The notes under the pieces: generated by a model
Told to the model about the DNA's origin: nothing
Databases searched by the model: none
Seen by the model: the letters and a program-made list of their open reading frames with translations, nothing else
Translations under genes and position numbers: made by a program
Source: Candidatus Jorgensenbacteria bacterium
GTDB lineage: Bacteria; Patescibacteriota; Minisyncoccia; UBA6257; GWB1-50-10
Reading direction: 5' to 3'
DNA: 50,512 bases
Assembly: GCA_030648515.1 (NCBI GenBank)
Contig: JAUSHK010000005.1
Location: 112,383-162,894 of the forward strand
Shown: positions 41,277-45,197 of the stretch, one piece after another
Layout: each line of letters begins with the position of its first letter
Numbering within the stretch: the first letter of the stretch is position 1

Positions 41277-42041
41277 CTATTGTTTATTATCGCGCGGCTT
41301 ACGCGTGAAGAAGTAGATTGCCAAAATTATGATGAGGAGGATGACCGCCCCTGAGAGAATACCAATCCAGGTTTTTCCAGTTCCGAAGGTAAGCGTGCCG
41401 AGTGCGGCCATTAAGAGCGTTGATGAGGTTGCTGGTTGCGAAACGATCGGCTTTGTTTGTTGTGCCGCTTCCCCGACAGTCGGTGTTGGCGCGGGAGCAA
41501 CTTCAGGCGCATTTTGTTGAGCAGGAACAGGCGATGATTCTGACGTTGGCGCTACTGTAGCTGGCGTTATCACCACTGCAATTTGAGATTGCGCGCTATC
41601 AAGCGCGTTTTTACTTGTTGCGTCCAATACTAATGAATTGCTTCCAACGCTTACGGTTCCATTGCCGGATTTTTTAGCTATGAATGAAACCGAACCGAAT
41701 GGGGCAACTCCGGAAATTCCACCAGGGTATCCTGCGGTTTTAATCAAAAGGCCGTTTGAATTATCCATTACATCATAACCGGCACGCGAAATTGCAATCC
41801 AACCGCTCTCAAACGAGAATGATTTGGCTTCCAAAAGATCCATCGGGTAATTCAATTCGGTCTTTACGGTGTAATTTTTTACACCATGCGGATCAATAGC
41901 AATATTTAGAGTAACCTCCTGCCCTTCTTTTACGCTGATATTTGCCGGCGAAAAAGAAAACGTCGTGGCGGCGCTTGCCTGCATTACGAGAAGCAGTGTT
42001 CCGGCAATACCAATGAGGGTTGTGAGTGTAGTTTTTTTCAT
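41277..42041 (-). CDS. Membrane-anchored cohesin-like protein
   Basis: 254 residues. Signal peptide (1-24, ending QASA), a cohesin-like beta-sandwich (about 25-158: TFSFSPANISVKEGQEVTLN, KTELNYPMDLLEAKSFSF, APFGSVSFIAKKSGNGTVSV, SLVLDATSKNALD), a Pro/Thr/Gln-rich linker (about 160-205), and a C-terminal helix (about 226-246) followed by a short basic tail (TRKPRDNKQ). This is the plan of an anchoring scaffoldin reduced to a single cohesin. The cohesin call is from the strand pattern and LNYPxxLLE/GxVSF motifs, not from a search. It lies 36 nt after the dockerin gene in the same operon. Confidence 0.75.
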   Translation of the reverse strand: MKKTTLTTLIGIAGTLLLVMQASAATTFSFSPANISVKEGQEVTLNIAIDPHGVKNYTVKTELNYPMDLLEAKSFSFESGWIAISRAGYDVMDNSNGLLIKTAGYPGGISGVAPFGSVSFIAKKSGNGTVSVGSNSLVLDATSKNALDSAQSQIAVVITPATVAPTSESSPVPAQQNAPEVAPAPTPTVGEAAQQTKPIVSQPATSSTLLMAALGTLTFGTGKTWIGILSGAVILLIIILAIYFFTRKPRDNKQ

Positions 42042-42077
42042 AAATTTGTTTTTGTGGTTTATATTCGTGTTAGATTT

Positions 42078-45000
42078 CTACAAAGTCCAGTACATCATGA
42101 GTAGATTGAAATCAAATATATCGACTTTACCGTCAGAATTAAAGTCCGCGATATTGCCGGCATCCGCGTTTCCCCAATTGACCAAGAGCGTGTTGAAATC
42201 AGTAATGTCAATTTTGTTGTCTCCATTCACGTCAATTTTTTGAGCGGCCAGGCTTAATGCCGGAATTGTTACTATCGGAGTAGGCGTTCCTCCCGCCGCC
42301 GCCACAACAACTGGCGCATCAGGAACGATTGAAACCGTTCCAGAACCTCCCGATACCGCCGTAAAGACATTGAGGCCGCCGAACGAAGTAAAGTGATACG
42401 TTACGATTTTTGTATCGGTCCCGTTTGATTTATAACACTCGCCTGGAAACGTCGGGGATGACGGACTTTCATATGTCCCGCCGCAGATATCTGTTATCTG
42501 CGTCCAAGCAGTAGAGCCCGATGGCTTATAAGCAACGTTTCCCGAAACTCCGGTAAGCGTTACAGTAACTGGTTTGCTAAAGATGAGCACTTCGGTTGGC
42601 GAACCTATTTCAATTACAGAATTTGATACCGAAAACCCTGACGGCGCACTGCCGTCTGTTGAACCGGTTTTTGGCGGTTGAATTTTTCCATTCCATCCGG
42701 TAGGAGCATATACAACCGATTCGTCTGGAATTGAAACTGAAACACCTGCCTTATCAGCATTTGAAAGAGAGATCGCCTCGCCTAAAACGCCCGAGTTAAG
42801 TTTTACCGACTGCGTGATAGTGACTGCCTGACCGCCAATTGTTTTTGCCGCGCCCTGATCAACCCCATTAACAACAAGCGTGCTCGTAGCAACCTTCCCC
42901 GACGAAACATCAAGAAATGTTGAGTTGCCTAGCGTGATTGTCGTCGCGCCTGACGGCAAATCTGCCTGGCCGCCTGTCGCGGACGTGAGGCCCGCGTCGG
43001 TTGTTGTTGAGTTAACCGTACTGCCACTCACGGCGTCCGATAAAATCGTTCTCGTTGAACTCAAATACCACGGGTCATAACTAACTAAACCGTTTTTAAG
43101 TGCCGTGATTTCAGTTGATGAAACAGTCCCCCACCAGTTTTTTGCGGCGTTAAGAGTATTGCCGGAATCTTCGTTTTTTATACCCAAAACGTTATCGGAT
43201 AAATCATTATTATTCACCGCTATACCATTCGCGGCAAACATAACACGTACACCCGCCGTACCAGTTTTATGCACAGTATTTCCTGTAATAGAGACACCGC
43301 TAAATGCGTTTATCGCGTTAAAGCCTAATTTTATGCCATAGGTAAATCCCTTACTGGTTATCGCATTAATTGTATTGTTAGAAACAGAAACATTTGTTAC
43401 CGCGCCGACATCATTCGCGCCTCCTATGTTTATACCTTGCCATCCGCCAACGCCAAAACTCCCAGGGGCGAGGTCTGTACTAATCGTATTACCGCTAATC
43501 GTCGTACTGGAACGCTCGGCTGTTATTGCCCTAGCTACGTTGCCGCTGAAATTATTATTTTGAATAGTCGCAACGCCAGAACCTTCGTCTATGTTTATAT
43601 AGACGCCTTCATAGCCCGCCGTCCCGGCAGAAAGATTCGTAAAACTGTTGTTGTGAATGTTTAAACTAGAAATGTCTTGCGTGCCAGACTCACTGAAACG
43701 CCACGTTTGAATCGCTTGAGATATTTCATTTTCATTTGCGGCCGGAGTCACTTTAAAAGCATTACTGTAAACATCAACATTGGAACTGCCAATTACTATG
43801 CCGCTGGAATATTTTCCAGATACATAGTTCGGCCCTTCAATTGTAAACCCGTGAATTTTTACCCCATTGGCTAATACATTAATATTCGGCATGGCCAGAG
43901 GAATTGAAGCAACGGCGACATTTTGAACACCCTTAATAGTTGTGCTCGCCAAGCCGGCGCCTGAAATATCAAGATTAGTTTTTCCGGCTGGTATCGTGAG
44001 GTCTTCGGTGTATGTCCCAATAGCAACGTGGATAGTTCCGTTCGCCATTGCGGCGCCGATACCTTCTCCGATTGTGTTATATGGATGCGCCTGCGTTCCG
44101 TCTTCAGCCCCAGAGTTACTAGCGTCAACGTAAACATTGCTATCAATATCAAACTGGGTGAAGTGCGCGGCGGAAAAAGACATCATCTTGCAAGCTGGCG
44201 CGTCTCCTGCGCACGCCGGAGCTGGATCGTTTTCGTACAACACGTCGGAGATTAGACCACTCTGGTCAAGTGCTGTTCCGCTATCGTTTTTCACAATTAG
44301 CGGCGGTTGGACCGTATACGGAAGGGACTCAAGATAAATTCTCGCGCCGGTCGCGTTCATCGCCTGCGCTGTTGCTGAATCAAACTTTACGTGCCCGTCC
44401 GACATTTGCATCTTTTGGCCCAAATCCTGCAAAACAGCCACCGTTGCTTGATCGCTTAAGTTTAGGCTAGCAGTGAAAACTATTTTCCCTTTTCCAACTT
44501 TTTCAAAATATAGGCCAGTGGAAGTCGCCGCCGGCGTTGCGGAAGGATTGTCCAGTTCGCCAATATTTGAACTTATACCGCTTGAAGCGAGTGTTGAGTC
44601 AATGGCGCTTAGCAATGGCGCCTTGCTAGGTTGCCCGGCATCATTGAACCACCCCTTGGTCGGAGTTTGGTTGGTTTGCCAGGCGCCAGAAATGTAAGCG
44701 CCTGATGTTCCAGAAGTTGGAGCGGTTTCTAACCCTGTAGTAGTAGTGAACCCAACTACTGTTCCGTAAACAATGTGATTAACCACGATGGGCGTGGCGC
44801 CGTTGTCATAAAGCGTTATTGAATCGCCGCTGTTATTGAGTCCCGTAACGTCAACTGTGATGATGCTGTTTGCCGGTATGGTTACGGCTCCGATAGTTGT
44901 AGTCGCTACGCCTGACACATTGCCGCCAGAAAAAGTAAAATTTTGTATTTTCCATCCAGACAAGGAGATGCTGGAAGTTGTTATATTTAATAATTCTACC

Positions 45001-45197
45001 AATTCGTTGCCAGAAGAGGGATTTGATACAAATTCATTAATAATTACATCGCCCGGAGTCGCCGCTGTTACTGGTTTTGTAATAAAAAAACCGCTCGTAA
45101 CAAGTACCGCGGCGATAACCAAGAGAACAACCTTTAATTTGCTCGAGATTTTTGTATCTTTCAAAAATGAGATACAACCTTTGCTTATACAGTTCAT
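42078..45197 (-). CDS. Exported LTD / beta-helix protein with C-terminal dockerin
   Basis: 1039 residues. An N-terminal signal (helix about 20-45) is followed by a lamin-tail domain (about 47-145: VIINEFVSNPSSGNELVELL, LSGWKIQN), a middle segment, a right-handed parallel beta-helix (about 355-700; PYNTIGEGIGAAMANG, IHNNSFTNLS, ISGNTIST, VSNNTIN, ITGNTVHKTG), Thr/Ser-rich beta domains, and a type I dockerin at 989-1039 with two Ca-binding repeats: DVNGDNKIDITDFNTLL and DFNSDGKVDIFDFNLLM. The dockerin would bind the cohesin of the next gene. Beta-helices of this kind often bind or cut polysaccharide, but no catalytic site is clear. Promoter at 45258-45286. Confidence 0.85.
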   Translation of the reverse strand: MNCISKGCISFLKDTKISSKLKVVLLVIAAVLVTSGFFITKPVTAATPGDVIINEFVSNPSSGNELVELLNITTSSISLSGWKIQNFTFSGGNVSGVATTTIGAVTIPANSIITVDVTGLNNSGDSITLYDNGATPIVVNHIVYGTVVGFTTTTGLETAPTSGTSGAYISGAWQTNQTPTKGWFNDAGQPSKAPLLSAIDSTLASSGISSNIGELDNPSATPAATSTGLYFEKVGKGKIVFTASLNLSDQATVAVLQDLGQKMQMSDGHVKFDSATAQAMNATGARIYLESLPYTVQPPLIVKNDSGTALDQSGLISDVLYENDPAPACAGDAPACKMMSFSAAHFTQFDIDSNVYVDASNSGAEDGTQAHPYNTIGEGIGAAMANGTIHVAIGTYTEDLTIPAGKTNLDISGAGLASTTIKGVQNVAVASIPLAMPNINVLANGVKIHGFTIEGPNYVSGKYSSGIVIGSSNVDVYSNAFKVTPAANENEISQAIQTWRFSESGTQDISSLNIHNNSFTNLSAGTAGYEGVYINIDEGSGVATIQNNNFSGNVARAITAERSSTTISGNTISTDLAPGSFGVGGWQGINIGGANDVGAVTNVSVSNNTINAITSKGFTYGIKLGFNAINAFSGVSITGNTVHKTGTAGVRVMFAANGIAVNNNDLSDNVLGIKNEDSGNTLNAAKNWWGTVSSTEITALKNGLVSYDPWYLSSTRTILSDAVSGSTVNSTTTDAGLTSATGGQADLPSGATTITLGNSTFLDVSSGKVATSTLVVNGVDQGAAKTIGGQAVTITQSVKLNSGVLGEAISLSNADKAGVSVSIPDESVVYAPTGWNGKIQPPKTGSTDGSAPSGFSVSNSVIEIGSPTEVLIFSKPVTVTLTGVSGNVAYKPSGSTAWTQITDICGGTYESPSSPTFPGECYKSNGTDTKIVTYHFTSFGGLNVFTAVSGGSGTVSIVPDAPVVVAAAGGTPTPIVTIPALSLAAQKIDVNGDNKIDITDFNTLLVNWGNADAGNIADFNSDGKVDIFDFNLLMMYWTL

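Follow-up and report, generated by a model that had tools for sequence, protein, structure and literature searches.

The two genes described here lie in a genome of 690,800 bases (100% complete), inside a stretch of 50,512 nt that corresponds to positions 112383-162894 of contig C3 (the window). The assignment of this genome to the CPR was confirmed, and those relatives of its cohesin that bear a lineage name belong to Patescibacteria/Parcubacteria; the source bacterium is tiny and probably host-attached. The first gene (42078..45197) encodes an exported protein of 1039 aa with Pfam matches to LTD and Dockerin_1, which is the cargo, or plug, of the pair. After a spacer of 36 nt (42042..42077) it is followed by the gene for a membrane anchor of 254 aa (41277..42041), which was recognised by profile and fold as the cohesin, or socket. 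Both genes and all of their features are on the minus strand, and the sequence bore out the reading frames and spacing that an earlier sequence-only reading had given. A PAP2 phosphatase gene (Pfam) and a tRNA-Leu on the opposite strand are found around the pair, and the flanking housekeeping genes, read from the sequence, are ParA/ParB-like, GroEL-like and RNA polymerase beta'-like. It was also observed that the two genes share one frame, with a single TAG ahead of the spacer and no other stop (42042-42080), and that they read as one chain in silico when TAG is translated as Q. The shared frame is probably due to chance. Read-through of the TAG, if it occurred, would produce a natural fusion resembling the one-chain protein of locus L140.

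The cargo protein starts with a signal peptide region (residues 1-45, 45063..45197), a hydrophobic segment ending in TKPVTAA that was recognised from sequence and hydropathy, and continues with a lamin-tail domain (LTD; residues 45-135, 44793..45065; PF00932, E 1.9e-12). A right-handed parallel beta-helix probably occupies about residues 355-700 (43098..44135, boundaries approximate). The Beta_helix profile (PF13229) matched residues 512-680 with 15 bits, under its cut-off of 25.9, and the start of the helix region is weakly like the pectinesterase 1xg2 (E 7.5e-4); no glycoside hydrolase domain was found in this protein with Pfam. Residues 989-1036 (42090..42233) form a type I dockerin, which scored 24.3 bits against Dockerin_1 (PF00404), above the gathering cut-off of 22.9. 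Its two Ca-binding loops of 12 residues each, DVNGDNKIDITD (989) and DFNSDGKVDIFD (1018), both precede a DFN motif, as is typical of this dockerin subtype, and AF2 modelled a helix after each loop with pLDDT >90. The earlier description of an exported protein with an LTD and a C-terminal type I dockerin carrying two Ca repeats was thus upheld, while the beta-helix that it also named is to be regarded as probable.

Two HFTxF motifs are present in the protein encoded at 42078-45197 (residues 345 and 935), one of which precedes the dockerin, and the motif also occurs in the second dockerin protein of the genome (residue 334). It brings to mind the HF/S-type sites at which ZU5/GAIN domains cleave themselves, but the idea of self-cleavage was set aside because the motif is rare, being found in 3 of 123 dockerin ORFs. 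A genome of the same family encodes a protein (locus L203, G099:C20) whose beta-helix end and pre-dockerin module are closely like those of the window protein. It likewise adjoins a window-type cohesin and is a probable ortholog.

The anchor consists of a signal peptide (residues 1-24, 41970..42041; sequence and hydropathy), a cohesin domain (residues 25-158, 41568..41969; hhalign, AF2 and Foldseek), a linker of Pro/Thr/Ala between sandwich and membrane helix, and a C-terminal transmembrane helix (about residues 224-246, 41304..41372; sequence and hydropathy) that is followed by the basic tail RKPRDNK. As a single sequence it gave no match to the Pfam Cohesin profile (PF00963), which used alone matched nothing in the whole genome, and a match to BT_3987-like_N was under the cut-off and was rejected. 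The HMM check suggested by the sequence-only reading therefore had a divided outcome: PF00404 matches the 1039-aa protein, but PF00963 alone misses the 254-aa protein. Across 64 anchors, PF00963 was matched at E<=1 by 23, the best at 2.9e-8. We distinguished the subfamily of the window anchor itself (A2) from the larger main family of CPR anchors (A3), and the two profiles align in hhalign with 99% and E 4.6e-18. The A3 profile had 17 matches in the PDB at E<=0.1, of which 16 were cellulosomal cohesins and the remaining one was 7urp. The A2 profile, built from a five-member alignment that is too shallow for this purpose, matched phage tail proteins best and reached cohesins at E 0.2-0.3. The AF2 model of the cohesin domain of the window anchor has pLDDT >90, and Foldseek placed cohesin or cohesin-like PDB entries at all of ranks 1-44 with probability 1.00; the best target TM-score among the matches listed was 0.82, to 2vo8. 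Cohesin matches were repeated with a second AF2 model, that of locus L174. The profiles together with the predicted fold confirm the sandwich of the 254-aa protein as a cohesin. What had been a guess, namely a cohesin-like sandwich with signal peptide, Pro/Thr linker and membrane helix, was in this way borne out, and an unrelated Ig or CARDB sandwich is ruled out by a fold that is that of a cohesin and a profile that joins the cohesin family.

The arrangement was found to recur widely. Dockerin neighbourhoods were gathered from 244 genomes of the order, and 95 of these genomes contain dockerins. The proteins encoded directly 3' of the dockerins show a recurrent layout of signal peptide, sandwich and membrane helix. 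With profiles, 75 of 88 C-terminal dockerin genes (68 of 79 genomes) were seen to be followed on their own strand by a cohesin that starts no more than 600 nt away, a count that supersedes the 61/88 obtained from hydropathy; for dockerins located elsewhere than at the C-terminus the figure was 11 of 33. The reverse search, seeded solely with the window-type cohesin, returned 22 loci, which include representatives of Wolfebacteria, Yanofskybacteria, Jorgensenbacteria, Azambacteria, Vogelbacteria, Liptonbacteria and Nomurabacteria. Three of them were unreadable (contig ends truncate L160 and L164, and L166 is masked), and at 18 of the 19 readable loci a dockerin forms the end of the upstream gene, or at 14 of 15 once the four loci that seeded the profile are removed. 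The sole exception, L178, is also without a membrane helix. Dockerins and A3-type cohesins occur together in 87 of the 244 genomes, while 8 have only the dockerin, 31 only the cohesin and 118 neither (odds ratio 41, uncorrected for phylogeny). Among 380 genomes of the phylum, 99 have dockerins and 126 have A3-type cohesins. The survey of related neighbourhoods that had been proposed thus found dockerin-cohesin adjacency to be systematic and the pairing near-constant, with a second pair in the same genome in addition. The device is less singular than had been supposed, because it belongs to a phylum-wide system with subtypes. As a separate observation, a protein of about 305 aa with signal peptide and membrane helix recurs upstream of many dockerin genes of about 340 aa (for example L052:1885-2802, L121:6251-7165 and L104:6214-7125). 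It is weakly like the peptidoglycan-binding domain of WxL-interacting protein, under the cut-off, and is possibly a third component of the operon.

The second pair of the same genome is of a different subtype and lies beyond the window, at C3:145-2176, where the dockerin gene (L032:145-1419) is followed after 16 nt by the anchor gene (1439-2176). Each of the only two dockerins of the genome therefore adjoins a cohesin. The two anchors share BLASTP similarity in the linker and membrane helix only, and the residues after the Ca loops are IT/IF-DFN in the window dockerin versus KY-DF[SA] in the second one. When each dockerin was compared with its nearest relative in another genome, the cohesin type next to that relative was the same in 61 of 64 pairs, against a maximum of 38 in 500 shuffles of the labels, the type I/II label in this test being taken from anchor length only. 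Where two subtypes are present in one genome, either dockerin is like its counterparts in other genomes and unlike its genome mate, with G161 as the one exception. This tracking of subtypes across sequences fits matched specificity, although linked inheritance of neighbouring genes alone could also give it.

Natural single-chain proteins were found in which dockerin, cohesin and transmembrane helix are fused (L140 and L207-L209), with the modules in the same order as in the operon. The first loop of the dockerin is degenerate in L207-L209, and the dockerins of these fusions may engage a cohesin in cis or in trans, or may bind none. A third cohesin of the same genome (L154:1210-3204, contig C4) is part of one chain that comprises an FN3-rich part, a Gly tract, a sandwich, the cohesin and a membrane helix, and it carries no dockerin. 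Cohesin profiles accordingly match the genome in three places, with one cohesin each. Such a series of fused and split forms is as expected if dockerin and cohesin stand in for a covalent joint. The interface was modelled with AF2 as a single chain in which the window dockerin and cohesin were read through the in-frame TAG. The pLDDT was mostly >90 in both domains, and pTM was 0.62 for the window pair and for that of L174 alike, with low confidence in the mutual placement. Since most rows of the alignment were unpaired, the linker contained a signal peptide and the fused stop lay within a helix, this outcome is neutral for binding and not evidence against it. The pTM value fits well-folded domains that are modelled without a fixed mutual position.

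Taken together, we consider it likely that the products of the two genes are a matched pair of cohesin and dockerin that serves non-covalent display at the cell surface. After export, the anchor would be retained in the membrane through its C-terminal helix and would present a single cohesin on a Pro/Thr stalk. The cargo protein would be secreted, and its C-terminal Ca-binding dockerin would plug into the cohesin of the anchor, so that the LTD and beta-helix rod becomes fixed to the cell exterior. The proposal that the second protein is a one-cohesin anchor for the first is supported by adjacency, recurrence, cohesin fold and subtype matching, and the binding of the window dockerin to the neighbouring cohesin is itself a prediction. 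Calcium would presumably be required for the pairing. The rod is a candidate adhesin that may contact a host cell or a polysaccharide. We infer host binding because of the CPR lifestyle and because a dockerin protein of Southlakia is essential (PMC10633639).

The nature of the cargo bears on the main alternative, a reduced cellulosome of the kind put forward for Shapirobacterales (PMC9123182), where the pair would hold an enzyme that degrades polysaccharides. The domains are common to cellulosomes, the start of the beta-helix has its weak pectinesterase likeness, and a CPR genome with glycoside hydrolases was reported to express cohesin and dockerin genes as well (PMC9123182). However, Pfam analysis showed that the modules of 60 dockerin proteins are for the most part Ig-like, FN3, TIG and MBG. 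None of the 25 commonest families is a glycoside hydrolase (13 rarer families fall outside this set), and only a GDSL lipase and one subtilase among the 25 are clearly catalytic. Since the cargo consists of Ig, FN3, LTD and beta-helix modules and enzymes are nearly absent from it, the evidence argues for surface display and not for a cellulosome. Moreover, all cohesin profile matches in the genome are single, and a multi-cohesin scaffoldin is absent from them. We regard the reduced cellulosome as unlikely.

The true partner of the dockerin might instead lie elsewhere, for example in the one-chain cohesin on C4 or in a cohesin of a partner cell, with the neighbouring anchor binding some other dockerin. 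The genome does have this third cohesin-TM protein with FN3 and no dockerin, and single-chain AF2 left the interface unconfirmed at pTM 0.62, but the conserved adjacency and the matching of subtypes in genomes with two pairs make such a partner quite improbable. It would be more surprising still if the sandwich were a generic stalk of cohesin fold that binds no dockerin, the dockerin-like repeats being Ca-stabilised ends and the two genes neighbours through membership of one surface operon. One-chain proteins found here do carry cohesin-fold domains without a dockerin, yet in several architectures a dockerin at the gene end is again followed by a cohesin anchor, and the dockerin and cohesin subtypes stay together. 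Matched surface display is thus the reading that we prefer, and the recurring pairing suggests a standard way to hold adhesive proteins on the surface of Patescibacteria. In its broadest form, this would be a phylum-wide modular plug-and-socket system, with several subtypes that have distinct recognition motifs, a cargo-then-anchor order, swappable adhesin rods for host attachment, and a series of gene fission and fusion to which the single-chain form belongs; we give this wider view about an even chance.

Within the literature searched, which has most subscription journals outside it, no description of CPR operons with adjacent cohesin-anchor and dockerin genes was found, and the recurrent one-plug, one-socket operon with its subtypes and fusions appears to be undescribed there. 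If true, a conserved anchor-cargo operon names an attachment partner in CPR host attachment, makes testable adhesin candidates of many CPR surface proteins that lack annotation, and recasts the claims of CPR 'cellulosomes'. The subtypes could also be of use in protein assembly as a source of new, small pairs of cohesin and dockerin.

Cohesins and dockerins of CPR bacteria have been noted in Shapirobacterales and Roizmanbacteria, where they were read as cellulosomes (PMC9123182). SEML1_0315 of Southlakia epibionticum is, as here, a dockerin protein of a CPR epibiont; it is essential in Tn-seq and was proposed to act on host glycans, and the report discusses no cohesin partner (PMC10633639). The pair resembles OlpA/OlpC of Clostridium thermocellum with its type I dockerin enzymes in the cohesin fold, the C-terminal dockerin with two Ca loops and the cell-bound cohesin protein, and the Foldseek matches include 3ul4 and 4dh2. 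The anchoring cohesins of cellulosomes differ from the present system, in which a TM helix serves as the anchor, each anchor has one cohesin, the cargo is adhesin-like and not cellulases, and the genes for cargo and anchor are side by side. Non-cellulolytic use is shared with the cohesin and dockerin of Archaeoglobus fulgidus (2xdh) and of ANME archaea. Dockerin-cohesin systems were listed among the possible syntrophy features of the latter, and as many as 5 cohesins are found in the scaffoldin-like proteins of ANME-1, 2a and 2c (PMC9012536), whereas the CPR anchors described here carry one, and the organisms and cargo are different. The best structural match among those listed (target TM-score 0.82) is to the cohesin modules of Clostridium perfringens glycoside hydrolases (2vo8, 2jh2); the cohesin is part of the hydrolases in that species, while here it is part of a membrane anchor.
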